Source of the DNA: Trichococcus pasteurii
Lineage (GTDB): Bacteria > Bacillota > Bacilli > Lactobacillales > Aerococcaceae
Length of the DNA: 64,000 nt
Reading direction: 5' to 3'
NCBI RefSeq assembly: GCF_900112935.1
Contig: NZ_FONM01000002.1
Coordinates: forward strand, 124,001-188,000
In this document: piece after piece, positions 43,698 through 54,930 of the stretch
How positions within the stretch are numbered: position 1 is the first letter of the stretch
How the letters are laid out: each line of letters opens with the position of its first letter
The notes under the pieces: generated by a model
Seen by the model: only the letters and a program-made list of their open reading frames with translations
The model's database searches: none
What the model was told of the DNA's origin: nothing
Program-made: the position numbers and the translations under genes

Positions 43698-43754
43698 GTG
43701 ACACTTCGTCAGTAAAACGTTATACTGATAAAAACAAACAGGAGGGTGATAGGG

Positions 43755-44549
43755 ATGAAAATAGCCTTGCTTCAGATGATGGTCACAGCGGATAAGGAAA
43801 AAAACCTAAAGCGTGCAGAAGAATTGGTCAACAAAGCAGCACAGGGTGGAGCGGATATGGCGGTGCTCCCGGAAATGTTCAATTGTCCTTATGATAACGC
43901 CTATTTCCCGGAATATGCGGAACCGAAGGGCGGGGAAACCTACCGGAGGCTCTCGGAGATGGCGAAAGAAAATGCCATCTATGTGGTCGGCGGATCGATT
44001 CCCCAGATCAAGGAAAATAAAATATACAACACAAGCTATACGTTCGATCGCCAAGGCAACGAGCTCCATGATTACAGCAAAACCCACTTATTTGATATCC
44101 AGGTTGATGGCGGGCAGGCATTCAAGGAATCCGATACGTTGACTCCCGGGAACGGAATGGGTGTATTCCAGACCGAATTCGGCCTTTTCGGCTTAGGCAT
44201 CTGCTTTGACGTCCGATTCCAAAGCGACTGGGAGATGCTCCAAAAACAAGGGGCGCTTGTCTGCATTGTGCCCGGCGCATTCAACATGACGACCGGACCG
44301 GCGCATTGGGAATTGCTGTTCCGGGCGCGCGCAGTCGACAATCAGCTCTTCATGGTAGGAGTCAGTCCTGCCCGCGACCTCGATTTCAGTTATCATGCAT
44401 ACGGCCATTCCCTTGTGGCGGATCCTTGGGGAAGCGTCCTGACCCAACTGGGTTTTGAGGAAGACATCGCAATCGTGTCGGTGGATCTCGAACGCGTTGC
44501 ATCCGTCAGAAGGCAAATACCCATCCTCAGTCCGCCTGTTATGGAATAA
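43755..44549 (+). CDS. carbon-nitrogen hydrolase (nitrilase superfamily, omega-amidase-like)
   Basis: 264 residues. The Glu-Lys-Cys triad is Glu40 (LPEMFNCPY), Lys109 (DYSKTHLFDI) and Cys150 (GLGICFDVRF). The sequence resembles Nit2/omega-amidase and related C-N hydrolases that deamidate short dicarboxylic amides such as alpha-ketoglutaramate, or that repair deaminated glutathione. Soluble. The frame opens at a GTG at 43746, but GGAGG at 43741-43745 is correctly spaced for the ATG at 43755. Single gene. Confidence 0.88.
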   Translation: MKIALLQMMVTADKEKNLKRAEELVNKAAQGGADMAVLPEMFNCPYDNAYFPEYAEPKGGETYRRLSEMAKENAIYVVGGSIPQIKENKIYNTSYTFDRQGNELHDYSKTHLFDIQVDGGQAFKESDTLTPGNGMGVFQTEFGLFGLGICFDVRFQSDWEMLQKQGALVCIVPGAFNMTTGPAHWELLFRARAVDNQLFMVGVSPARDLDFSYHAYGHSLVADPWGSVLTQLGFEEDIAIVSVDLERVASVRRQIPILSPPVME

Positions 44550-44659
44550 AAATACAGGAATTGGCAAAATGTACCTACAACATACTCACTCAGGGGGTTT
44601 CCGCGGTAAGGAAATCGTAAATAAACGCTTTTGTTTGTGTACCGGAGCACTTACTTTTT

Positions 44660-44668
44660 TGCTATAAT
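44660..44668 (+). promoter_or_regulatory. extended -10 promoter of the pyruvate:ferredoxin oxidoreductase gene
   Basis: TGCTATAAT, an extended -10 element, 111 bp before the start codon. No good -35 element at the normal distance (TTGTGT is 22 bp away). The 229-bp gap between genes contains nothing else that I recognise. Confidence 0.6.
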
Positions 44669-44778
44669 GAAATCACACGAATGCACCAGCCCGTCATTTT
44701 CTGCGACTCTTGGTCGAAAAATATCAGAAAAACAACCCGCTGAATGTGAACTATACGATTTGAGAGAAGGAATCCTTT

Positions 44779-47700
44779 ATGTCCAACGAAAAAATGTATA
44801 TGACTGTCGATGGCAATACTGCCGCAGCCTATACATCTTATGCTTTTACTGAACTTTCAGGGATCTATCCCATTACACCGTCTTCCCCGATGGCCGATGC
44901 TGTCGATCATTGGGCTCAGGAAGGCCGCAAGAATATTTTTGGCCAAACCGTGAAAGTAACCCAGATGCAATCTGAGGCTGGCGCGGCGGGAACTGTGCAC
45001 GGGGCGCTGCAAGCAGGCGCTTTGGCATGTTCCTATACTTCATCGCAAGGATTGTTGTTGATGATCCCCGACCTCTATAAAATGGCCGGGCAACTGTTGC
45101 CTTCCGTCATCCATGTTGCCGCTCGTGCAGTTGGGGGCCATGCGCTTTCCATCTTCGGTGACCATTCTGACGTGATGGCCTGCAGACAGACCGGCTATGC
45201 AATGTTAGCTTCCTCCAGCGTTCAGGAAACGACGGACTTGGCCGCGGTCGCCCATTTGGCTGCGATCAAAGGACGCGTGCCGTTCCTGCATTTCTTCGAC
45301 GGCTTCCGGACTTCGCACGAAATCCAAAAAATCGAGGTTCAATCGTATGACGACCTTGCGGAAATGCTCGATCAGGATGCTTTGAAGGCATTCCGGGACC
45401 GTAGCCTCAGCCCGAATCACCCGACCCTGCGGGGAACGGCTCAGAATCCCGACGTCTTTTTCCAGACCAAGGAAGCGGCAAACCGATATTATGATGCTGT
45501 TCCGGAAATTGTCGAAGGTTATATGGAAAAAATGAACCAGTTGACCGGAAGGGACTACCACTTGTTCAATTATCACGGTGCCATGGATGCGGAGCGGGTC
45601 ATCATCTGCATGGGCTCCGTGTTTGAAACTGCCTGCGAGACCGCGGATTACCTGAATCGCTTGGGAGAAAAAGTTGGTGTCCTGAATGTGCATCTTTACC
45701 GTCCATTCAGTGTCGGACACTTTTTGAAGGCTTTGCCGGACACCGTAAAACGGATTGCGGTACTCGACCGCACAAAAGAAGCCGGCTCCATCGGTGAACC
45801 GCTCTTTTTGGATGTCGTGGCTGCCTTCAACAGTCGACTTGACCGTCCGATGATCATCGGCGGCCGCTATGGATTGGGTTCGAAGGACACAACGCCGGAA
45901 CAAATTTTCGCAGTATACAAAAACCTGAAGAAAGAGCAACCGCAGCATCCCTTCACAATCGGCATCAACGATGACGTCACCCACCTGTCGCTTGCGATCG
46001 ATGAACAGATCGATGTCCGTCCGGAAGGCACTTTTGAAGCGCAGTTCTGGGGGTTCGGTTCTGACGGGACTGTCGGAGCCAACAAAAATTCGATCAAAAT
46101 CATCGGGGATCACACCGATATGCATGTCCAAGCCTATTTCTCCTACGATTCGAAAAAATCGGGCGGTGTCACCATTTCCGATCTGCGTTTCGGCAAGGAG
46201 CCTATCCATGAGCCGTACCTGATTGAAAGGGCTGATTTTGTGGCTTGCCATAACCATGCCTACGTCAAAAAATACGATATGCTGAAGAACCTGAAACCGG
46301 GCGGAGCTTTCCTTCTGAACACCAATTGGCGTGCTGAGGATCTCGAACAACGCTTGCCTGCCAAGATGAAACGGTACATCGCACAAAACAAGATTGATTT
46401 CTATACGATCGACGCCATCAATCTTGCCAAGGAAATCGGCTTGGGCGGACGGATCAATACAATCTGCCAAGCGGCCTTCTTCAAAATCCTGCCGGTCATA
46501 CCTGCTGAAGAGGCGATGCAGCACATGAAGGAGGCGGCCCGCAAATCATACGGACACAAAGGCGAAGCCATCATTTCCATGAATGAGAAAGCGATTGTTG
46601 CCGGCATGGAAGCTGTCCAAAAAATCAGCATTCCGGATAGCTGGAAGGATGCGCAGGATGAGCCGGAAGTAATAAGAGAAGAACCGGATTTTGTCCGCAA
46701 CATCGCCAGCATGATGGAGCGGATGGAAGGCAACCAATTGCCGGTCAGCGCCTTTTTGGACCGGGCTGACGGTACTTTCCCGCAGGGGACGACGCAATAT
46801 GAGAAACGCGAAATCGCCGTCCAGATTCCGATCTGGAATCCCGAAGAATGCATCCAGTGCAATCAATGCTCCTTCGTCTGCCCGCATGCCGCCATCCGAC
46901 CTTTCCTGGCCACCGAGGATGAGGCAGCCAAGGCCCCTGAAGGTGTGGAATTTCTGGATGGGATGCGCCCATACAAAGACTACAAATACCGGATCCAAGT
47001 GTCCGCTGCCGACTGTACGGGTTGCGGCATCTGCGTCTTGACCTGTCCTGCCCGCAAAAAAGCGATCGAGATGAAAAACCGTGAAGACCATCTTGAAGAA
47101 AATAATAACTGGGATTACATGATCCGTCTGCCGCACAAGGAAAATCCTGTCGCCATCAATACGGTGAAAGGCAGCCAATTCGAACAACCGTTGTTCGAAT
47201 TTTCAGGGGCCTGCGCTGGTTGTGGCGAAACGCCATACATCAAACTGGTCACCCAAGTGGTGGGCGATCGCATGCAGATCGCGAACGCGACAGGCTGTTC
47301 GTCAATCTATGGAGGCTCTGCTCCTTCCACGCCGTATACGACCAATGAAGCAGGCTGCGGACCGTCTTGGGCAAATTCCTTATTGGAGGATAATGCGGAA
47401 TTCGGCCTAGGGATGCACCATGCGACGAAACAACTGCGCCAACGAACATTGGAATTGACAGGAGAGCTCTTGACCCTGCAGATCGACGATTCGCTCAGAA
47501 CGGCAGCAACAGCCTGGACTGAAGGATTCAACGACAAGAATGGTGCCCGCAAATTAGCCGAAGCTTACATCCAAGCTTTGGAAACTGCGGACACAACGGA
47601 TCAGAAAATCCAACAATTGGTCAACGAACTAGTGGACTACAAGGACTATCTTATGAAGCGTTCCACTTGGATGATCGGCGGCGATGGCTGGGCCTATGAT

Positions 47701-48318
47701 ATCGGTTTTGGCGGTATCGACCATGTCCTCGCAAGCGGGGAAGATGTGAACATCCTCGTGTTGGATACGGAAGTCTATTCCAACACAGGCGGACAGGTTT
47801 CGAAATCTTCCAACCTGGGCGCAATCGCTGAGTTCGCTTCCGGCGGCAAACCGGTCCGCAAGAAAGACTTGGGCATGATGATGATGAACTACGGGTACGT
47901 TTATGTCGCCCAGATTGCGATGGGCGCGAATCCGCGGCATACCTTGAAAGTCATCTCCGAGGCGGAGGCCTACGATGGTCCTTCCATCGTTATCGCTTAT
48001 TCCCCATGCATCAGCCACGGCATCAAGTGCGGTTTGACCGTATCGCAGGAACACGAAAAAGATGCAGTGGACGTCGGTTATTGGCATCTATACCGCTTCC
48101 ACCCGGAAAACAAACTGAAAGGGAAAAACCCGTTCAAGTTGGATTCCAAGGAACCGCAGTTTGAACGTTTCCAGGATTTCCTGATGGAAGAAGTCCGCTA
48201 TTCTTCGCTGTACAACCAGTATGATGCTGAGCATGTACAGGCGATCTTCAACGAAAGCCTACAGGCCGCAAAAGACCGTTATCAGTCGTATGCACGCTTG
48301 GATTCCTATACTGACTAG
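44779..48318 (+). CDS. nifJ: pyruvate:ferredoxin (flavodoxin) oxidoreductase
   Basis: 1179 residues, single-chain PFOR, typical length; converts pyruvate and CoA to acetyl-CoA, CO2 and reduced ferredoxin or flavodoxin using TPP and three [4Fe-4S] clusters. Domain I begins TVDGNTAAAYTSYAFTELSG; the YPITPSSPMA motif contacts the substrate. Two ferredoxin-type clusters: Cys691-694-697-701 and Cys746-749-752-756. The proximal cluster cysteines lie in ACAGCGETPY, NATGCSSIYG and the late HGIKCG. The TPP motif is GGDGWAYDIGFGGIDH near 970. It is oxygen-sensitive in most organisms, pointing to anaerobic pyruvate metabolism. No ferredoxin gene is adjacent. Confidence 0.95.
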   Translation: MSNEKMYMTVDGNTAAAYTSYAFTELSGIYPITPSSPMADAVDHWAQEGRKNIFGQTVKVTQMQSEAGAAGTVHGALQAGALACSYTSSQGLLLMIPDLYKMAGQLLPSVIHVAARAVGGHALSIFGDHSDVMACRQTGYAMLASSSVQETTDLAAVAHLAAIKGRVPFLHFFDGFRTSHEIQKIEVQSYDDLAEMLDQDALKAFRDRSLSPNHPTLRGTAQNPDVFFQTKEAANRYYDAVPEIVEGYMEKMNQLTGRDYHLFNYHGAMDAERVIICMGSVFETACETADYLNRLGEKVGVLNVHLYRPFSVGHFLKALPDTVKRIAVLDRTKEAGSIGEPLFLDVVAAFNSRLDRPMIIGGRYGLGSKDTTPEQIFAVYKNLKKEQPQHPFTIGINDDVTHLSLAIDEQIDVRPEGTFEAQFWGFGSDGTVGANKNSIKIIGDHTDMHVQAYFSYDSKKSGGVTISDLRFGKEPIHEPYLIERADFVACHNHAYVKKYDMLKNLKPGGAFLLNTNWRAEDLEQRLPAKMKRYIAQNKIDFYTIDAINLAKEIGLGGRINTICQAAFFKILPVIPAEEAMQHMKEAARKSYGHKGEAIISMNEKAIVAGMEAVQKISIPDSWKDAQDEPEVIREEPDFVRNIASMMERMEGNQLPVSAFLDRADGTFPQGTTQYEKREIAVQIPIWNPEECIQCNQCSFVCPHAAIRPFLATEDEAAKAPEGVEFLDGMRPYKDYKYRIQVSAADCTGCGICVLTCPARKKAIEMKNREDHLEENNNWDYMIRLPHKENPVAINTVKGSQFEQPLFEFSGACAGCGETPYIKLVTQVVGDRMQIANATGCSSIYGGSAPSTPYTTNEAGCGPSWANSLLEDNAEFGLGMHHATKQLRQRTLELTGELLTLQIDDSLRTAATAWTEGFNDKNGARKLAEAYIQALETADTTDQKIQQLVNELVDYKDYLMKRSTWMIGGDGWAYDIGFGGIDHVLASGEDVNILVLDTEVYSNTGGQVSKSSNLGAIAEFASGGKPVRKKDLGMMMMNYGYVYVAQIAMGANPRHTLKVISEAEAYDGPSIVIAYSPCISHGIKCGLTVSQEHEKDAVDVGYWHLYRFHPENKLKGKNPFKLDSKEPQFERFQDFLMEEVRYSSLYNQYDAEHVQAIFNESLQAAKDRYQSYARLDSYTD

Positions 48319-48328
48319 CATCAATCCG

Positions 48329-48366
48329 GACCAGTCGCCACCTAATTGTGGCGACTGGTCTTTTTT
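48329..48366 (+). terminator. intrinsic terminator after nifJ
   Basis: GACCAGTCGCCA against TGGCGACTGGTC with an eight-base loop and six T residues. Confidence 0.95.
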
Positions 48367-48411
48367 GTTGCGTTCAGGCAGAATCCAAAGTTACGACGGC
48401 ATCCTAATGTT

Positions 48412-48439
48412 TTGAGAAAAGATATGGGAAGGCTATAAT
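48412..48439 (+). promoter_or_regulatory. sigma-A promoter of the proteasome-like gene
   Basis: TTGAGA at 48412-48417, 16-bp spacer, consensus TATAAT at 48434-48439; the gene has its own well-formed promoter. Confidence 0.75.
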
Positions 48440-48494
48440 GAAGTAAAGAAAGCGCTTTTGGAGAATAGGCTTGTAAAGAAAGCGAGGAACCATT

Positions 48495-49751
48495 ATGACG
48501 GCAGAAGTAGGGATATTGAACGCGAACGGAGTGGTGCTGGCTGCTGATTCCGCCCTGACGATGGGGAACAGCGAACAAATGAAAATATTCAATTCCGGAA
48601 ATAAGATTTTTTCGCTGGGGCCGAGCCATTCGGTTGCCATCATGATGTTCGGGAATGTACAATTCATGGGGATTCCATGGGAGATCATCGTTACAGGGTT
48701 CCATCAGAAAATAGGGGCCAGACCATTGGATACGGTCTCGGATTACTGCACCGAATTCTTCAATTATCTTGAGAGTGTGGATGAGATCTACTCCTCAATC
48801 TACTCCGAAGTGCTCATCATCGGCTATGCGGAGAATGTTTGCAATATTTTGGAGAATACGACTTACATACCGTCTCCCGGTGCTTTCACACTGGCGGATT
48901 ACCAAAAAGCTGTCGAGGAAAAGATTCCCGCTTTGCTGAAAGAAAGCGAAAAAATGAAGAGCATCACCAAAAAGGCGCCTATCAAAGTTTTCACCGATCG
49001 TTACGGGGAGAAGCTGGATGAGGTTTTTAAGGAGCTATTCGATACGGTGTTTTTGGGCTTAAACCTCTATGATAAATTTAAGCCGGATCTTTATAAGATC
49101 GTGCGGAATTATGTGTACAGCGACAGTTACTATCCCGACACCTATTCCGGCCTGGTGATCGCCGGCTTCGGCTTCGATGAGCTGTTCCCCAGCATCTATC
49201 AGTACGACATATCCGGTGTCGTCGATAGAGTGATCAAAAAACGGCTGACTGTGCGCCAAATCGTGATGAATGATTTTGCCGAAGACAGATGCTCTTCGGC
49301 CATAGTTCCATTTGCGCAACAGGATATGGTCCATACGGTCATAAACGGCATAGCGCCTGATCTGGAGGCCGATCTCGGGGAATTGCTCCGCGCCACACTC
49401 GAAAAACTAATTTCGGAACTTACTGAGAAAAAGTTGCTGAAGGAAAGTGATGCTCCGGAAATCAACAAACTGAAGGCGACGCTAGTCGAATCGGGCCTGA
49501 ATGCCTTCGACAACATGAAACAGGAGCGGCATCTGACCCCTGTATTGATGACGATCGATTCCATGCCGAAGGAGGAACTTGCTCTGATTGCTGAAACGTT
49601 GGTCAACATCACCTCCTTCAAAGGGAAAATATCCTTTTCGATGGAAACGGTAGGTGGGCCGATCGATGTGCTCCTGATCACGAAAGGGGACGGCCCGGTC
49701 TGGGTCAAACGGAAGAACTATTTCAATCCCGACATCAATCGGCTGCGTTGA
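48495..49751 (+). CDS. proteasome-like (Ntn hydrolase fold) protein with large central insertion
   Basis: 418-residue soluble protein of an uncharacterised family. The N-terminus MTAEVGILNANGVVLAADSA parallels a proteasome beta subunit: Thr2 falls where the catalytic Thr1 is after Met removal, Asp18 at the Asp17 position, and Lys37 (SGNKIFSL) near the Lys33 position with a three-residue insertion. A VAIMMFGN stretch (about 47-54) matches the VAIAG-type strand. A mostly helical insertion of about 130 residues follows. The second half (SGLVIAGFGFDELFPSIYQYD near 215 without its end; ETVGGPIDVLLITKGDG near 390) resembles the later strands of the beta fold. No ATPase partner is adjacent. Family resemblance is seen; peptidase activity is inference. 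Confidence 0.7.
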   Translation: MTAEVGILNANGVVLAADSALTMGNSEQMKIFNSGNKIFSLGPSHSVAIMMFGNVQFMGIPWEIIVTGFHQKIGARPLDTVSDYCTEFFNYLESVDEIYSSIYSEVLIIGYAENVCNILENTTYIPSPGAFTLADYQKAVEEKIPALLKESEKMKSITKKAPIKVFTDRYGEKLDEVFKELFDTVFLGLNLYDKFKPDLYKIVRNYVYSDSYYPDTYSGLVIAGFGFDELFPSIYQYDISGVVDRVIKKRLTVRQIVMNDFAEDRCSSAIVPFAQQDMVHTVINGIAPDLEADLGELLRATLEKLISELTEKKLLKESDAPEINKLKATLVESGLNAFDNMKQERHLTPVLMTIDSMPKEELALIAETLVNITSFKGKISFSMETVGGPIDVLLITKGDGPVWVKRKNYFNPDINRLR

Positions 49752-49871
49752 AAGAACTGCCGGCGAGAAGTGCACAGGTAACCCGGCGTTCTGTTGCGAA
49801 TAGAAAAACTTTCCCAAAGTTTCCGGACTTGGTGTAAAATGAATGAAATGAGCTTTGTGGAAGGTGTTATT

Positions 49872-50102
49872 ATGTATTTGAATATTCAAGAAACGGCCGA
49901 CTATCTGGAAGTGCCGGTCAGCGAAATCCATCGTTTGATCCGCGAGCGTCAAATCCGCACAATCAGTGTGGATGAGGAAATACTCCTGAACCGCGATCAA
50001 TTCAACCTTTTCATCGAACAAAGGGAAAAGTACAAACAAGAACTGGAGACTTACCTGAACACGCCTCTGCCGGAAGATCCCGACATCAAGGATGAGGATT
50101 GA
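49872..50102 (+). CDS. small HTH protein, excisionase/MerR-like (HTH_17)
   Basis: 76 residues: MYLNIQETADYLEVPVSEIHRLIRERQI is a winged-HTH excisionase-type DNA-binding domain, followed by an acidic helical tail (IEQREKYKQELETYLN). In-frame starts exist upstream to 49794, but the ATG at 49872 lies six bases after AAGGTG and gives the domain at its N-terminus. There is no integrase beside it, so it is more likely a small regulator than a phage excisionase. It lies 120 bp after the proteasome-like gene and ends at a terminator. Confidence 0.8.
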   Translation: MYLNIQETADYLEVPVSEIHRLIRERQIRTISVDEEILLNRDQFNLFIEQREKYKQELETYLNTPLPEDPDIKDED

Positions 50103-50148
50103 AAAAAGCAGCGAACCCTCAATCATAAGAGAGCTCGCTGCTTTTTTT
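50103..50148. terminator. bidirectional terminator
   Basis: AAAAAGCAGCGA against TCGCTGCTTTTT with a 20-base loop; A-run on the left and T-run on the right, serving both the HTH gene and the converging membrane protein gene. Confidence 0.9.
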
Positions 50149-50176
50149 CGTTTAGGATGCAACTTAATTGAAAGGT

Positions 50177-51157
50177 TTACAGGTTTTGTTTGCGCCTGTA
50201 TTCAGTCCGCGAGAGTCCGCTTGTTTCCGCATTTTCGACGGCTGGCTGTTCCGCTGTGAAGACAGCTGGCGTTTGTTTGGCAGATTTTGCAGCAAAACGC
50301 TTTTTCCCTTTGATTTTTCCTTTAAATTTGCCGGATTTGAACAGGTCCAGCGCCAGGAAACCTGCGGCTACGATAAAGAGACTGAACGAGATGGCTCCCA
50401 TCCAACCGGAAACACCCAACAGGTCATCCAAAGTTGTCCGGAGATGGATATACCTTAATAATGCGCCCAAACCTGCGCACAGGATCGCCCGTTTGGCGTT
50501 GCCGCTGGCTAGCTTCAAGCGCTTATTGCCCTCCATAAGCATACTGAAGACGGCAATCGCATAACTGACGAGTGCGGCGTACAGGAGCAAGTTGTTCAGG
50601 CCCGTGATGTTCGCCAAAAAATCGCCGGCCATCGTTTGCGTATCCAGGAAAAGGAATAATGTGCCGAACAGCGCACCGAGTACACCGTTTCTGAAATGAG
50701 TGCCTTGCTTCTTCAACAGCTTATTCAAATTTGCCGAAAAGGACAGGAACGCCAGTGCGTAACAACCGATGGCCAAATAGAGCGTCAAATCGGAAATGCC
50801 TGTTCTGGCAGTTATCAGTTGATCAGTGGCTGTTTGGGTGTGCAGATAGAGGAAGCCGGTTCCCAGGATCAAACCGGAAACGCCACTGCGGAATCGGGCA
50901 TTTGCTTCGCGTTTCTGCTTGCTTTTCCCAAACAGGACCTGCAGAGTGGCTAGTCCCAAAAATAAGAGTGAAAGGTAAAGGGCAAGGTCCGGAATGCCGA
51001 TCATGTTGCCGACAGCAGTGGCCTGATGCAGGTATCCGAAGAGCACGCCGAGAAACACTGACGTAAATGGAAATCTGGATTCCTTGCCGTTGTGTTTTCT
51101 CGTAATATGGATGAATGTCAGGATAAGAAGAACAATGATGATGATCGGGTAGGTCAT
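50177..51157 (-). CDS. membrane protein with fourfold internal repeat
   Basis: 326 residues. One N-terminal helix (about 4-18) is followed by four related units of about 66 residues starting near residues 28, 89, 155 and 221, each with two predicted membrane helices. Shared features are FR-G-LG-LFG at the unit start, YLHTQT or its relatives after the first helix, and a G-x-DL-LYLA-x-x-YALA second helix. The C-terminal about 50 residues are basic and cytoplasmic (KGKIKGKKRFAAKSAK). The frame extends to 51235, but the ATG at 51157 has an AAGGGGG ribosome binding site. I do not recognise the family; it may be a structural or transport protein. Confidence 0.8.
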   Translation of the reverse strand: MTYPIIIIVLLILTFIHITRKHNGKESRFPFTSVFLGVLFGYLHQATAVGNMIGIPDLALYLSLLFLGLATLQVLFGKSKQKREANARFRSGVSGLILGTGFLYLHTQTATDQLITARTGISDLTLYLAIGCYALAFLSFSANLNKLLKKQGTHFRNGVLGALFGTLFLFLDTQTMAGDFLANITGLNNLLLYAALVSYAIAVFSMLMEGNKRLKLASGNAKRAILCAGLGALLRYIHLRTTLDDLLGVSGWMGAISFSLFIVAAGFLALDLFKSGKFKGKIKGKKRFAAKSAKQTPAVFTAEQPAVENAETSGLSRTEYRRKQNL

Positions 51158-51375
51158 GCCTAATCCCCCTTGTATGTCTATTTGCTCTGAACAACTTGTG
51201 GAACGACACTGTTTTTGTAGTTCTGGAGCATTCAAAGGACATCATAACACAGATTTATGATGCATTTGTTTCGGAATGACGATTATTTTGTTAAGAAAGT
51301 ATGACCTGTTTCACCATATGACCAAAAACGTGAACCGAAGCAACAAACTGTGAGGATGTTATTTCAGGATGCATC

Positions 51376-51410
51376 AAAAAAGCATACCACTGCTAAATGA
51401 GCGGTATGCT
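51376..51410 (-). terminator. intrinsic terminator for the PRiA4_ORF3-family gene
   Basis: On the minus strand: AGCATACC, 14-base loop, GGTATGCT, then six T residues. Confidence 0.9.
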
Positions 51411-51429
51411 GTGCAGTTTGAAGGATGAA

Positions 51430-52149
51430 TCAGAAATTTGGCGGAGAATCTTCCGTCTCATCAGGCGGAACATCATCCCAGTTAGTATCGATCGCATACT
51501 CTGACCCAAAGTCTTCATATTCCGTGTCGAAAATATCCGAATCGCCCAACTGGGATAATGCGAAATTGATCAAACGGATCAAATCTTGTGTGTCCGTCAG
51601 TTTCAATTTATCCCGATTCTGCAGAATCGTGGGGCGGTCCTCCATTTCGTCGGGACTGGCGTTTTCCGCGGCTACACAAATCGGATAGCTGCAGTCTTCT
51701 TGGGGAGCAACCATTTCCGTGAGTTGGATATCCACTTCCAAGACGGCATCCGTGAAATAGATGTAGGTCGCCGCATCATCGATATCGGTGAAATATTTCA
51801 GCAGCTGCTGGTCCTCATTTTCCGCGCTGTCGTTTTCATCATAATAGTCGTATTCATTTTCTTCGATTTCATCCACATCTTCACGTTCTTCATTGGAATA
51901 TTCCCGGAAGTCGCTCTCGTCTGTGTAATCTTCCAAAGTGTCCAAAGGTGTCTCCTCAATGATGATAGGAAGGAGATCTGACCCGCCGGAACGCGTGATT
52001 TCAAAACGGTGTTCGAAAAATCCGCTCCAACTGAATGCTGCTTGGATGATGCTGTTGAAGTCGTAGAAAGTCTCATCGCTGTTCACCTGGATATCCCGCC
52101 AAATCGGCACGCCGATGTCTCGGACAGCAACTCTGAATTCATAAATCAT
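51430..52149 (-). CDS. PRiA4_ORF3/IS1096 passenger TnpR-family protein
   Basis: 239 residues. The N-terminal part MIYEFRVAVRDIGVPIWRDI and FNSIIQAAFSWSGFFEHRFEI fits the plasmid pRiA4b ORF-3 family, a small alpha-beta domain. The middle (about 75-115) is extremely acidic with Asp/Glu/Tyr runs, and the C-terminus is acidic too. Function is unknown; the historical name does not imply a mobile element, and no transposase or inverted ends are nearby. The ATG at 52149 is eight bases after GGAG; a GTG at 52158 abuts the ribosome binding site and is unlikely. Confidence 0.8.
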   Translation of the reverse strand: MIYEFRVAVRDIGVPIWRDIQVNSDETFYDFNSIIQAAFSWSGFFEHRFEITRSGGSDLLPIIIEETPLDTLEDYTDESDFREYSNEEREDVDEIEENEYDYYDENDSAENEDQQLLKYFTDIDDAATYIYFTDAVLEVDIQLTEMVAPQEDCSYPICVAAENASPDEMEDRPTILQNRDKLKLTDTQDLIRLINFALSQLGDSDIFDTEYEDFGSEYAIDTNWDDVPPDETEDSPPNF

Positions 52150-52252
52150 TCCGACCACTCCTATTCTCTTCTTTCCTCAAGTATAGCGCTTTAATGAGGT
52201 TGGGAGCAAAGAATAACACACAGATTATTCAATGAAAGTCCATGGTCAGGGA

Positions 52253-52290
52253 ATCAGTGTACCTTCTCCAACTGTGTATGGTACACTGAT
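52253..52290. repeat. 11-bp perfect inverted repeat upstream of the AEC transporter gene
   Basis: ATCAGTGTACC at 52253-52263 and GGTACACTGAT at 52280-52290, separated by 16 bases. Either an operator for an unknown regulator or an RNA hairpin in the leader. It is not followed by a T-run, so it is not a terminator. Confidence 0.75.
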
Positions 52291-52369
52291 AATATTGATT
52301 GATTCAGCCTTTCATTACTCAAGCAGGCTACGTAACAATATTTATACTTCCAGAAACGGAGAGGATCAG

Positions 52370-53308
52370 TTGGAGAATTTTCCCATTGCATTGAATGCGG
52401 TAATGCCTTTGTTGTTGTACATGTTGATTGGACAGGGGTTGTTGCGGGCCCGTCTGTTGGACGGCACGACCTATCAAAATTTGAATAACGCCATTTTTCG
52501 GTTCTTTTTGCCGATCAACCTCCTTATGAACGTTTACGAAGCGGACGTAAGAAGCACCTTCAGAGTGGATGTGCTCCTGTTCGCTGTCGGACTTACTTTA
52601 AGTATTTTCTTCCTTTTTGCCTTATTCATTCCGCGGATAGAAAAGGACAATGCCAAACGCGGGGTGATGCTGCAAGGCACATTCCGCTCCAATTTTGTCC
52701 TTTTCGGCTTGCCGATTGCCACTTCGTTGTTGTCGGAAAGCCAATTGGGGATGACATCGATACTGATCGCGGTCATCGTTCCCTTGAATAATGTTCTGTC
52801 GGTCGTGGCACTTTCCATTTTTTCGGATCATAAAATTCAACCCGGCAGGATTCTCCTGGATATCCTTAAGAATCCGATGTTCATCGGGACGATAATCGGG
52901 ATACTGATCAGCCTTTCCGGATTGAAATTCCCTCTGTTCCTCGACGATACACTGAGCGGCATCAAAGGTCTGGTCACACCTTTAGCGTTGATTGTTATGG
53001 GCGGCACTTTCCGCTTTGACGCTTTGAATAATGCGCGGATCCAACTGGCAATGACTGTATTCTTCAAGTTGGTTCTGATCCCAATAATCGGTCTGACGCT
53101 GGCTGTCCTCTACGGATTGACCAGAGAAAATCTGGTGCCGATGATGACGATGCTGGGAGGGCCGACAGCGGTATCCAGCTACACGATGGCGCAACAGATG
53201 GGCGGAGACCCGGATTTGGCGAGCCAAATCGTCGTTTTCACCACCATCTTTTCGATGTTCAGTTTGGTTGTGTTCATAACGGTCCTGAAATCATTATTCT
53301 TGATTTGA
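52370..53308 (+). CDS. AEC-family (auxin efflux carrier-like) transporter
   Basis: 312 residues with about ten predicted membrane segments in a 5+5 arrangement. Family features are NAVMPLLLYMLIGQGLLRA at the start without its ends, LQGTFRSNFVLFGLPIATSL near residue 100 and LVTPLALIVMGGTFRF near 205. Bacterial members export organic acids or related anions (for example malate in Oenococcus); the substrate here is unknown. The frame runs upstream to 52232, but the TTG at 52370 lies five bases after GAGAGG and gives the family N-terminus (reads MENFPIALNAVMPL). The 11-bp inverted repeat before it may be its control site. Confidence 0.85.
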   Translation: MENFPIALNAVMPLLLYMLIGQGLLRARLLDGTTYQNLNNAIFRFFLPINLLMNVYEADVRSTFRVDVLLFAVGLTLSIFFLFALFIPRIEKDNAKRGVMLQGTFRSNFVLFGLPIATSLLSESQLGMTSILIAVIVPLNNVLSVVALSIFSDHKIQPGRILLDILKNPMFIGTIIGILISLSGLKFPLFLDDTLSGIKGLVTPLALIVMGGTFRFDALNNARIQLAMTVFFKLVLIPIIGLTLAVLYGLTRENLVPMMTMLGGPTAVSSYTMAQQMGGDPDLASQIVVFTTIFSMFSLVVFITVLKSLFLI

Positions 53309-53317
53309 ATGCTAACT

Positions 53318-53363
53318 AGGGAAGCGGGAGTCTGCTCAGATGCAGATTCTTGTTTCCTTTTTT
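53318..53363 (+). terminator. intrinsic terminator after the AEC gene
   Basis: Interrupted stem GGGAA...AGTCTGC / GCAGATT...TTTCC followed by six T residues. Confidence 0.8.
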
Positions 53364-53451
53364 GTTCACTCTGGTTCGCCTATGGCCCGGTGAAAGCTTA
53401 TAATGGATGTAGAAGTGACACAACAATCCGTTAAGATAGGGGACGATAAAG

Positions 53452-54069
53452 ATGATCATCATCGGGATTACCGGAGGGTCGGGAGCCGGCAAAACAACCG
53501 TAGCAAAAACAATCGCGGAAAGACTGGGCAAGGGCAATGTCGTCTATGTATCGCAGGATTGGTACTACAAAGATCAGGCACATCTAAGCGCAGAAGAGCG
53601 TGAAAAGCTGAATCTCGATCATCCTAACGCTTTCGATAACGAACTTTTGATTTCTGATTTGGCCAAACTCCGTTCTGGACAAAACATCGAGGCACCAATC
53701 TACGATTTCGGTGATCAAGCGCGTTCGAAAAAGACGACTCCGATAGTTTCGAAGCCGGTCGTAATCCTGGAAGGAATTCTGATTTTGGCCATACCCAAAT
53801 TAGTTTCCATGATCGATATCAAAATATTTGTCGATGCTGAACCGGATATCCGCCTGATCAGAAGGATCGAGAGGGACATCAGGGAGCGGAACAGCACATA
53901 CGAAAGTACAATCGCCCGCTACCTGACGACGGTCAAACCGATGCATGATGCGTTCATAGAGCCATCCAAAATCAAAGCAGACATCATCGTACCGCGAGGG
54001 GGCCAGAACGACATAGCCACCGATATGCTCGGGGACTTGGTTGAGCATTACAGCCATCACCATGCATGA
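53452..54069 (+). CDS. udk: uridine kinase
   Basis: 205 residues; phosphorylates uridine and cytidine in pyrimidine salvage. Walker A is GGSGAGKTT at residues 8-16, the YVSQDWYYKD motif near 31, NLDHPNAFD near 53 and the RRIERDIRER arginine-rich lid near 141. Length and order fit Udk well. A TATAAT at 53399-53404 may be its promoter -10. No neighbouring pyrimidine gene. Confidence 0.93.
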   Translation: MIIIGITGGSGAGKTTVAKTIAERLGKGNVVYVSQDWYYKDQAHLSAEEREKLNLDHPNAFDNELLISDLAKLRSGQNIEAPIYDFGDQARSKKTTPIVSKPVVILEGILILAIPKLVSMIDIKIFVDAEPDIRLIRRIERDIRERNSTYESTIARYLTTVKPMHDAFIEPSKIKADIIVPRGGQNDIATDMLGDLVEHYSHHHA

Positions 54070-54225
54070 TGCAGAATGTCTCAGCATACAAATTCGAAAG
54101 AGAAATTTTTTGATGAAAAAAGCATTAGAAATAGACAAGAAAACAGAAATAGTATATAGTGTTCCTATGCAGTAATACTACTGTCAAAAAAGCAGAACAC
54201 GCATTGAAACGAGAGGATCTATTCA

Positions 54226-54930
54226 GTGGATAACACAGAATTGTTGACGCGATTTAATCTTACCAGGCACGAAGCGACCATCTACCTGACCTTGCTAGCG
54301 GACGGGGACCTGAACGGCTATGAGGTTTCGAAAATAACCGGTATTTCACGCTCGAATGCCTATGCCTCATTGGCTTCGTTGGTTGAAAAAGGAGCTGCCT
54401 TCATTATCGAAGGAGAGACAACCCGATACACACCAGTACCCGTGGAAGAATTCTGCGGGAACAAGATCCGGTCGCTTCAGGAATCCAAGCAGGAATTGAT
54501 CAAGAATATCCCGCAAAGAAGAGAAGATGCCGAAGGTTACATAACCATCACAGGCGAACACCGCATAATGGACAAAATGCGCAATATGATTTCCGAATCA
54601 AAGTCCCGCGTGTACTTGTCCGTGTCCGGGAACATCCTGCCGGCACTTTTGACGGAAATGCAGGCAGCCCATCAGCGCGGCATAAAAATGGTCGTCATAA
54701 CCGATATACCGTTCCCCCATGATGGGATGACGGTCCATCTTTTGGAGAAACCGAAGAAGCAAGTAAGGATCATCGTGGATTCCACGACCGTCCTTACTGG
54801 AGACATCGATGAGGGAGAGTTTTCCACTTGCCTATACTCCGGAAAGAAAAATGTAGTTGATTTATTGAAAGAATCGTTGCAGAACGAAATCAAAGTAGTC
54901 GAAATGATGAGAGGATTTGAAGCCAAATGA
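54226..54930 (+). CDS. TrmB-family transcriptional regulator
   Basis: 234 residues starting at GTG (ribosome binding site GAGAGG). The N-terminal winged HTH is TRHEATIYLTLLADGDLNGYEVSKITGIS without ends, about residues 12-40, continuing with RSNAYASLASLVEKG. The C-terminal effector part has a phospholipase-D-like fold stretch (ESKSRVYLSVSGNILPALLTEM). TrmB regulators are best known in archaea as sugar sensors and are less common in Lactobacillales. It overlaps the decarboxylase gene by four bases, so it probably controls that gene in an autoregulated operon. The ligand is unknown. Confidence 0.85.
   Translation: MDNTELLTRFNLTRHEATIYLTLLADGDLNGYEVSKITGISRSNAYASLASLVEKGAAFIIEGETTRYTPVPVEEFCGNKIRSLQESKQELIKNIPQRREDAEGYITITGEHRIMDKMRNMISESKSRVYLSVSGNILPALLTEMQAAHQRGIKMVVITDIPFPHDGMTVHLLEKPKKQVRIIVDSTTVLTGDIDEGEFSTCLYSGKKNVVDLLKESLQNEIKVVEMMRGFEAK

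Follow-up and report, generated by a model that had tools for sequence, protein, structure and literature searches.

A PMI-4-type proteasome-like hydrolase of Trichococcus and the small gene that adjoins most of its sampled relatives

The hydrolase gene and its surroundings

The window, that is the whole 64,000-nucleotide stretch of Trichococcus pasteurii DNA that was analysed, contains an intact open reading frame for a predicted N-terminal threonine hydrolase. A preliminary description, made from the letters alone, had given the span and sequence of this frame, and both were matched exactly. The features of the locus and of the encoded protein are listed below.

48328..48361, + strand: terminator-like hairpin of the upstream pyruvate:ferredoxin oxidoreductase-like (PFOR) gene; 14-pair stem followed by a T run
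48412..48439, + strand: sigma-70-type promoter-like site TTGAGA-16-TATAAT; 11 of 12 consensus bases
48448..48459, + strand: cre-like box GAAAGCGCTTTT, just 3' of the -10 box; mostly conserved in nine aligned Trichococcus upstream regions
48482..48489, + strand: ribosome-binding site GCGAGGAA; GCGAGGA in 9/9 aligned upstream regions
48495..49751, + strand: hydrolase gene (PMI-4-type, proteasome-like, predicted N-terminal threonine hydrolase); intact frame of 418 codons, 418 aa
48498..48500, + strand: Thr2, predicted nucleophile, equivalent to proteasome Thr1; present in 114/114 aligned sequences and paired with chain residue 1
48546..48548, + strand: Asp18, equivalent to proteasome Asp17; 114/114
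48603..48605, + strand: Lys37, equivalent to proteasome Lys33; 114/114
48795..49118, + strand: first helical insertion, after H1/H2; helices 101-123, 133-152, 163-184 and 192-208 (DSSP of the AF2 model)
49146..49316, + strand: core strands 218-274 (AF2 model); the family motif PFAQ here takes the place of the proteasomal GSG (register by eye)
49356..49562, + strand: helical hairpin inserted between H3 and H4; helices 288-311 and 317-356 (AF2 model)
49644..49670, + strand: signature ETVGGP[VI]DV and the beginning of the last core strands (motif patterns, AF2 model)
49752..49871, + strand: interval that holds the companion gene in relatives; in the window it holds no companion, just a TTG frame of 29 codons and the upstream part of the HTH-like frame
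49872..50102, + strand: neighbouring 76-aa ORF, outside the finding; helix-turn-helix/excisionase-like by sequence appearance, syntenic in 9/10 other Trichococcus loci

The upstream gene was named by eye as a probable PFOR gene, and the hairpin lies between it and the hydrolase gene, separating the two. Both promoter hexamers were kept in the window and in eight other Trichococcus loci when the upstream regions were aligned, in agreement with the earlier proposal that the hydrolase gene has its own promoter. The palindrome beside the conserved -10 box resembles a CcpA catabolite-repression (cre) box, which suggests catabolite control of the Trichococcus gene. By eye, no HslU-like gene was apparent among the ORFs of 43746-54930, as had been noted before.

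Relatives and their sampling

Searches of 84,980 species genomes confirmed 497 of 574 candidate stretches as relatives, among them archaeal and bacterial genomes of many phyla, and 163 of 187 candidates were confirmed on viral contigs. From these, 160 loci were kept, namely the best 80 of each collection, a selection that qualifies all conservation counts given here. Two loci with an incomplete start (L085 and L087) were left out, and removal of sequences at least 85% identical left 113 relatives and the window protein. As relatives were retrieved by C-terminal motif patterns, conservation of the active site was not directly selected for.

Predicted fold and active site

Sequence searches gave short matches to proteasome profiles. 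Pfam Proteasome (PF00227) matched residues 5-44 (E 1.7e-4) at 21.7 bits, or 16.1 bits in a genome-wide search, below the gathering cut-off of 22.4 bits; the archaeal proteasome beta model TIGR03634 matched residues 2-49 (E 1.1e-3). Profile searches of Pfam, NCBIfam and PADLOC returned no full-length match, PADLOC giving no confident model (best E 0.038), and PDB chains gave no sequence match at E up to 10. A full-length match was obtained to the phage family phrog_5990 of PHROG (E 7e-93), for which the library gives no function. At E ≤ 0.001, BFVD gave a single match, a 219-aa phage protein named 'Proteasome beta type-2 subunit'.

An AF2 model built on the 114-sequence alignment reached pLDDT 93.4 and pTM 0.91. 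The top VIA-align match was Anbu (5nyw_H, Z 17.5, rmsd 3.6, 199 aligned residues), with Anbu 5lox at Z 17.2 and proteasome beta chains tied with Anbu (Z about 17, beta5 chains up to 17.5). Whole-model Foldseek TM-scores on the query were low, 0.18-0.29 among the 50 matches listed, presumably because of the insertions. A proteasome beta/Anbu fold with two helical insertions is thus well supported as a prediction, and the structure prediction and fold search proposed in the preliminary description recovered the proteasome-type Ntn halves that it had recognised. The large insertion between those halves, put there at about 130 residues, spanned 107-141 residues (median 125) in the 114 sequences and was helical in the model. 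A second insertion, between H3 and H4, had been overlooked; it spanned 48-82 residues.

Thr2, Asp18, Ser19 and Lys37 were invariant in all 114 aligned sequences, so the homologues do conserve the three residues on which the original assignment depended. The distance from Asp to Lys is 19 residues, as against 16 in proteasomes, which corresponds to the three-residue insertion first proposed. In VIA-align, model residue 2 was the first aligned residue and was paired with chain residue 1 in many rows; the proposed register therefore stands. Thr2 was present in each of the 158 loci with a complete start, preceded by ATG (136), TTG (11) or GTG (11). An in-frame stop lay no more than 10 codons upstream of the start in 74/113 non-redundant loci, which makes a propeptide unlikely. 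For one E. coli protein (WP_231531568.1, 467 aa; L189:7786-9189) the annotated start is probably too far upstream, as MTAEIV, with Thr2, follows 33 codons later. Gly53, the likely oxyanion residue, was Gly in 96/114 sequences, the other 18 having no Gly there.

The preliminary description had left a choice between an active threonine hydrolase and a dead scaffold. Since Thr2, Asp18 and Lys37 are identical in 114/114 sequences, propeptide-free threonine chemistry appears likely and a dead scaffold unlikely, and the dN/dS of about 0.025-0.05 among Trichococcus copies also favours the active half of that choice. That the active-site residues are intact is well supported; from this we infer catalysis. 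The surroundings of the triad differ from those of proteasomes (PFAQ for GSG and ETVGG for DxxSGG, register by eye), and the chemistry may therefore not be proteolysis.

Proteasome beta subunits and HslV share the sheet core and the triad with the window protein. They are shorter, form rings and work with alpha subunits or with HslU; HslV has about 175 residues and an HslU partner gene. The window protein, by comparison, has 418 aa and is flanked by the PFOR-like gene and the HTH-like ORF. The genome contains one other PF00227 match above the cut-off, a 175-codon frame that is presumably HslV.

Membership of the PMI-4 family

The protein had been taken for a distinct, longer branch, with HslV, Anbu and BPH as the only bacterial relatives. 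Neither point survives: 22 further proteasome-like families have been described (Fuchs, Alva & Lupas 2021, PMC8665760), and among them PMI-4, the proteasome homolog with multiple insertions 4, of unknown function, fits the present protein. PMI-4 proteins have insertions after H1/H2 and between H3/H4, and Table 1 of that paper (PMC8665760) lists them from many bacterial phyla, cyanobacteria, Euryarchaeota and phages. The paper reports no informative genomic context for the new proteasome homologues and, in the text covered, no companion gene.

The window protein agreed with this account at each point compared. The core fold, the Thr1/Asp17/Lys33 set (114/114), both insertion sites and the lack of a propeptide are shared. 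The model contained the sheet core with flanking helices, the long H1/H2 insertion (helices within 101-208) and the two helices between H3 and H4, the helix naming being by eye. An S3/S4 insertion, the mark that separates PMI-5 and PMI-6 from PMI-4, was absent, as successive model strands from 21-24 through 47-54 are never more than 6 residues apart. The relatives, from the genome collection and from phages, likewise cover many bacterial phyla, Euryarchaeota and phages. The protein thus matches PMI-4 by insertion sites and distribution, rather than by comparison with the authors' sequences (e.g. HDY66466.1). Anbu, although the top solved-structure match together with proteasome beta, has a C-terminal helix H5 (PMC8665760) and lacks these insertions, whereas in the window model both insertions are present and the chain beyond residue 379 is free of helices.

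A companion gene adjoins most sampled relatives

A companion was scored as a same-strand ORF of 40-85 codons whose start lies no more than 40 bases ahead of, or 50 bases beyond, the hydrolase stop. Such an ORF was found in 101/108 testable non-redundant loci, compared with 282/1061 control genes, i.e. other called ORFs of at least 150 codons in the same loci (Fisher p 1.6e-44); as chance alone would give 27% positives, the 101 may include some spurious frames. Five loci with fewer than 260 bases downstream were uncounted (L104, L116, L128, L134 and L144) and were left with the companion-bearing majority when the tree was labelled. The companion frame often overlapped the end of the hydrolase gene. 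The seven loci lacking an ORF of 40-85 aa were L032, L034, L073, L084, L097, L120 and L180; two of these, L034 and L180, contain a frame of 35 codons, which in L180 is similar to the companions of Pantoea and E. coli. The candidate of L100 was judged spurious and scored as companion-less in the tree labelling, yet it is present in the 101/108 count.

Comparison with phmmer linked 43 of 105 candidates into one cluster that extends across archaea (ANME-1, Methanoperedenaceae and Altarchaeum) and bacteria. A further 30 fell into six small clusters, and 32 were unlinked, being either chance frames or fast-changing sequences. The aligned core reads [ST]xxE[FYW]xKx[YF][FL]P and is followed by a C-terminal helix; many Bacilli have a [FY]F[NK]xP version. 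Three helices were predicted (pLDDT 80.9, pTM 0.37), and a Pfam search with 36 members gave one marginal match (E 0.0099). Most close pairs had dN/dS values of 0-0.25, a mark of purifying selection, which indicates that the companion is a real gene where this could be tested; several more distant pairs gave 0.3-0.74. The two E. coli types have candidates of 49 and 34 codons, unannotated in the regions read. A hypothetical protein is annotated at the companion position in Javan468, a Providencia phage, a Porphyromonas phage and an E. faecium plasmid.

Larger conserved neighbours were also sought. When 1133 neighbour ORFs of 60 aa or more, taken from 113 loci, were clustered, no family occurred in more than six loci, the top family being the companion itself; a conserved larger partner such as an AAA+ unfoldase was rejected on this basis. 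The Mesorhizobium and Novosphingobium proteins (L022 and L100) are extended far at the C terminus, and their genes lack a convincing companion; the two genes upstream of the hydrolase in one locus match those in the other (66% and 60% identity).

Listings of open-access literature, and PMC8665760 itself in the text covered, gave no mention of the companion. As far as that literature was searched, the widespread companion and the mobile, often lysogeny-suited context are new.

The Trichococcus copy

All 13 genomes of the genus that were searched carried one hydrolase copy, and a search of 47 further genomes from the same family and order, representing 37 other genera, found none. The PFOR and HTH-like genes flanked the hydrolase in 9/10 other Trichococcus loci, PFOR being cut by a contig end in one; in T. 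palustris the gene lies near PFOR in a different gene order. Comparison of the window with eight close loci gave dN of 0.008-0.028 against dS of 0.32-0.82, and the Trichococcus hydrolase is under strong purifying selection. One record titled Sedimentibacter sp. SX930 (L024, MUZD01000002.1) contains the Trichococcus locus, 98% identical and fully syntenic, and its name looks wrong.

Companions were lacking in the window copy, in T. palustris and in Enterococcus alcedinis (E. alcedinis). In a quick ML tree with an arbitrary root, these three rows formed one clade (SH-aLRT 99). This clade joined eight other copies, of which seven came from viral contigs, in an 11-row set (SH-aLRT 98). The eight include versions likened to Javan85, Javan421 and the E. 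faecium plasmid. A 13-row companion profile, which makes for a weak test, found nothing elsewhere in the T. pasteurii genome at E up to 1. The simplest history would be capture from a streptococcal or enterococcal phage-type element, followed by companion loss and conservation. The preliminary description was incomplete in these respects: besides the H3/H4 insertion, it had missed that the gene is distributed on mobile elements and that, outside the clade of the window copy, most sampled relatives have a companion.

Mobile-element contexts

The hydrolase gene was present in 13 of 50,697 phage records, nine of them streptococcal phages or satellites, and in 10 of 72,556 plasmid records. Its placement varied. 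It lies near the element end in the Javan468 satellite, about 70% along the Javan421 satellite, ahead of a HAD hydrolase and a RelBE pair, and last in Javan85, after a peptidoglycan hydrolase. Providencia phage PSTRCR_117lys has it between a methylase and a holin, and a Stenotrophomonas phage has it antisense, beside a holin. The position between portal and neck genes in the Porphyromonas phage does not fit a lysogeny-only gene. On viral contigs of at least 20 kb, 14/35 non-redundant copies fell in the outer tenth at either end (7 expected, p 0.005), and 21/35 lay elsewhere.

In E. coli, 22 of 5426 genomes had the hydrolase, 9 and 13 of two types, and the one region read per type was a prophage in both cases. 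One type is antisense to late genes, between Q and a methyltransferase. The other lies immediately after a same-strand, repressor-like HTH gene, a position in keeping with expression in the lysogen.

The downstream flanking gene was on the opposite strand in 23/40 viral loci, compared with 96/364 control genes (p 1.6e-4). Opposite-strand genes on both flanks were not significantly enriched, either in viral loci (9/40 vs 44/364 controls, p 0.08) or in genome loci (13/60 vs 82/573, p 0.13). A general strand independence of the hydrolase gene was therefore unsupported, only the downstream flank in viral loci differing clearly.

Broken (interrupted) copies were seen in Rhizobium leguminosarum TpK pRL1 (L190) and Hyphomicrobiales UR115 (L213). 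A Methanoperedenaceae genome (L059) has a second, split partial copy of the family (G072:C1:608312-608937).

Defence and ubiquitin-type neighbours

For the 239 genes that lie no more than two positions from a chromosomal copy, PADLOC matches at E ≤ 1e-5 included type I and type IIG restriction, DISARM, Avs1a and Lamassu, as seen in the best 25 of 148 and the best 25 of 190 profiles. In a matched comparison within 20 genomes, 138 neighbours gave 90 profiles at E ≤ 1e-20 (the best 25 of 90 were inspected) and 131 control proteins gave 12; the contrast counts profiles, and that per protein may be much smaller. Controls were taken from the contigs that carry the hydrolase, at other positions picked arbitrarily, 9/140 being left out by size. 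One neighbour, a type I methyltransferase, alone matched 19 profiles, and one control profile was matched by four proteins. Since many profiles can stem from one protein, the contrast is suggestive of a defence neighbourhood around chromosomal copies, rather than proof of one.

In rhizobial and sphingomonad loci (L022, L100 and L190-L192) the hydrolase lies near multiubiquitin, ThiF and DUF6527 genes in two arrangements; L190-L192 also have a ClpP gene within a few genes of it, and the ThiF of L191 has a JAB-like HSHP motif, as judged by eye. This neighbourhood is possibly a ubiquitin-proteasome-like island of these alphaproteobacteria. A co-occurrence search centred on the L100 genome covered 385 alphaproteobacterial genomes, of which 17 had the hydrolase, 12 had a Multi_ubiq match and two had both. 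The genes were adjacent only in L100's own genome, and a general ubiquitin link of the hydrolase was rejected.

Discussion

The interpretation builds on the observed sequence conservation, predicted fold, companion gene, mobile contexts and purifying selection. We put at roughly 0.5 the probability that the two genes form a mobile phage-host conflict module in which the small protein is a regulator or partner of the PMI-4-type threonine hydrolase, the odds of a conflict role as such being about even. Methionine aminopeptidase would expose Thr2 directly, without a propeptide, and Thr2, Asp18 and Lys37 would cut an amide bond. Assembly into proteasome-like rings would be hindered by the two helical lobes around the sheet, which would probably restrict the enzyme to a particular substrate. 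On mobile elements, the hydrolase would be the first gene of a co-transcribed two-gene unit, and the companion protein may bind and regulate it as inhibitor, adaptor or obligatory partner. The module would be accessory cargo that a resident element retains for its action in conflicts between phage and host or between phages. A relative of the streptococcal/enterococcal phage-type copies would have become fixed near the PFOR gene in Trichococcus, losing its companion and keeping its active site. A fuller version, which we hold more tentatively, is that PMI-4 and a companion of about 60 residues constitute a widespread, undescribed conflict system: the companion would gate the enzyme, mobile elements and prophages would use the pair to defend the lysogen, and Trichococcus-like lineages would have domesticated the enzyme alone. 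Some observations count against the conflict module. The fixed orphan copy of Trichococcus fits a physiological role as well as defence, the portal/neck position in the Porphyromonas phage is unlike lysogeny cargo, and PADLOC has no confident model for the hydrolase.

One alternative is a physiological protease, which would clear or process an ordinary host protein, as suggested for the uncapped proteasome or BPH, with mobile elements merely spreading the gene. The single, strongly conserved copy in all 13 genus genomes, its own promoter with a cre-like box and the occurrence in archaeal and bacterial genomes of many phyla would all fit. Yet the gene is missing from all 47 other genomes searched in the family and order, occurs in just 17/385 alphaproteobacterial genomes, some of them fragments, and is placed in prophages, satellites and plasmids, so that we consider this reading rather unlikely. 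A toxin-antitoxin pair, in which the companion neutralises a toxic hydrolase and, being labile, is lost on infection to free it, is unlikely too. The partner is indeed small, diverse and adjoining, and the gene after the pair is on the opposite strand more often than in controls, but the hydrolase gene comes first, Trichococcus and E. alcedinis keep it without an adjoining companion, and the own genome gave no companion elsewhere in the weak profile test.

A threonine enzyme that joins or cuts a specific peptide, with the companion as its substrate, has a precedent in connectase, a proteasome relative that ligates (PMC8665760), and the altered surroundings of the triad are in keeping with it; the companions show no obvious conserved motif at their termini, and we regard such a ligase as improbable. 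The identity of Thr2, Asp18 and Lys37 in all aligned sequences leaves a catalytically dead scaffold with very little probability, although inactive proteasome relatives exist, proteasome alpha among them.

The function of the new proteasome homologues was left open by Fuchs et al. (PMC8665760), and a conserved small gene adjoining one of them in archaea, bacteria and phages offers a handle on it. Together with the mobile context, the companion turns an orphan protein into a testable two-gene module, and the E. coli prophage versions put a test of the conflict role within reach of laboratory strains. If the module does act in phage-host conflict, the enzymatic repertoire of prokaryotic immunity would come to include proteolysis of the proteasome type.
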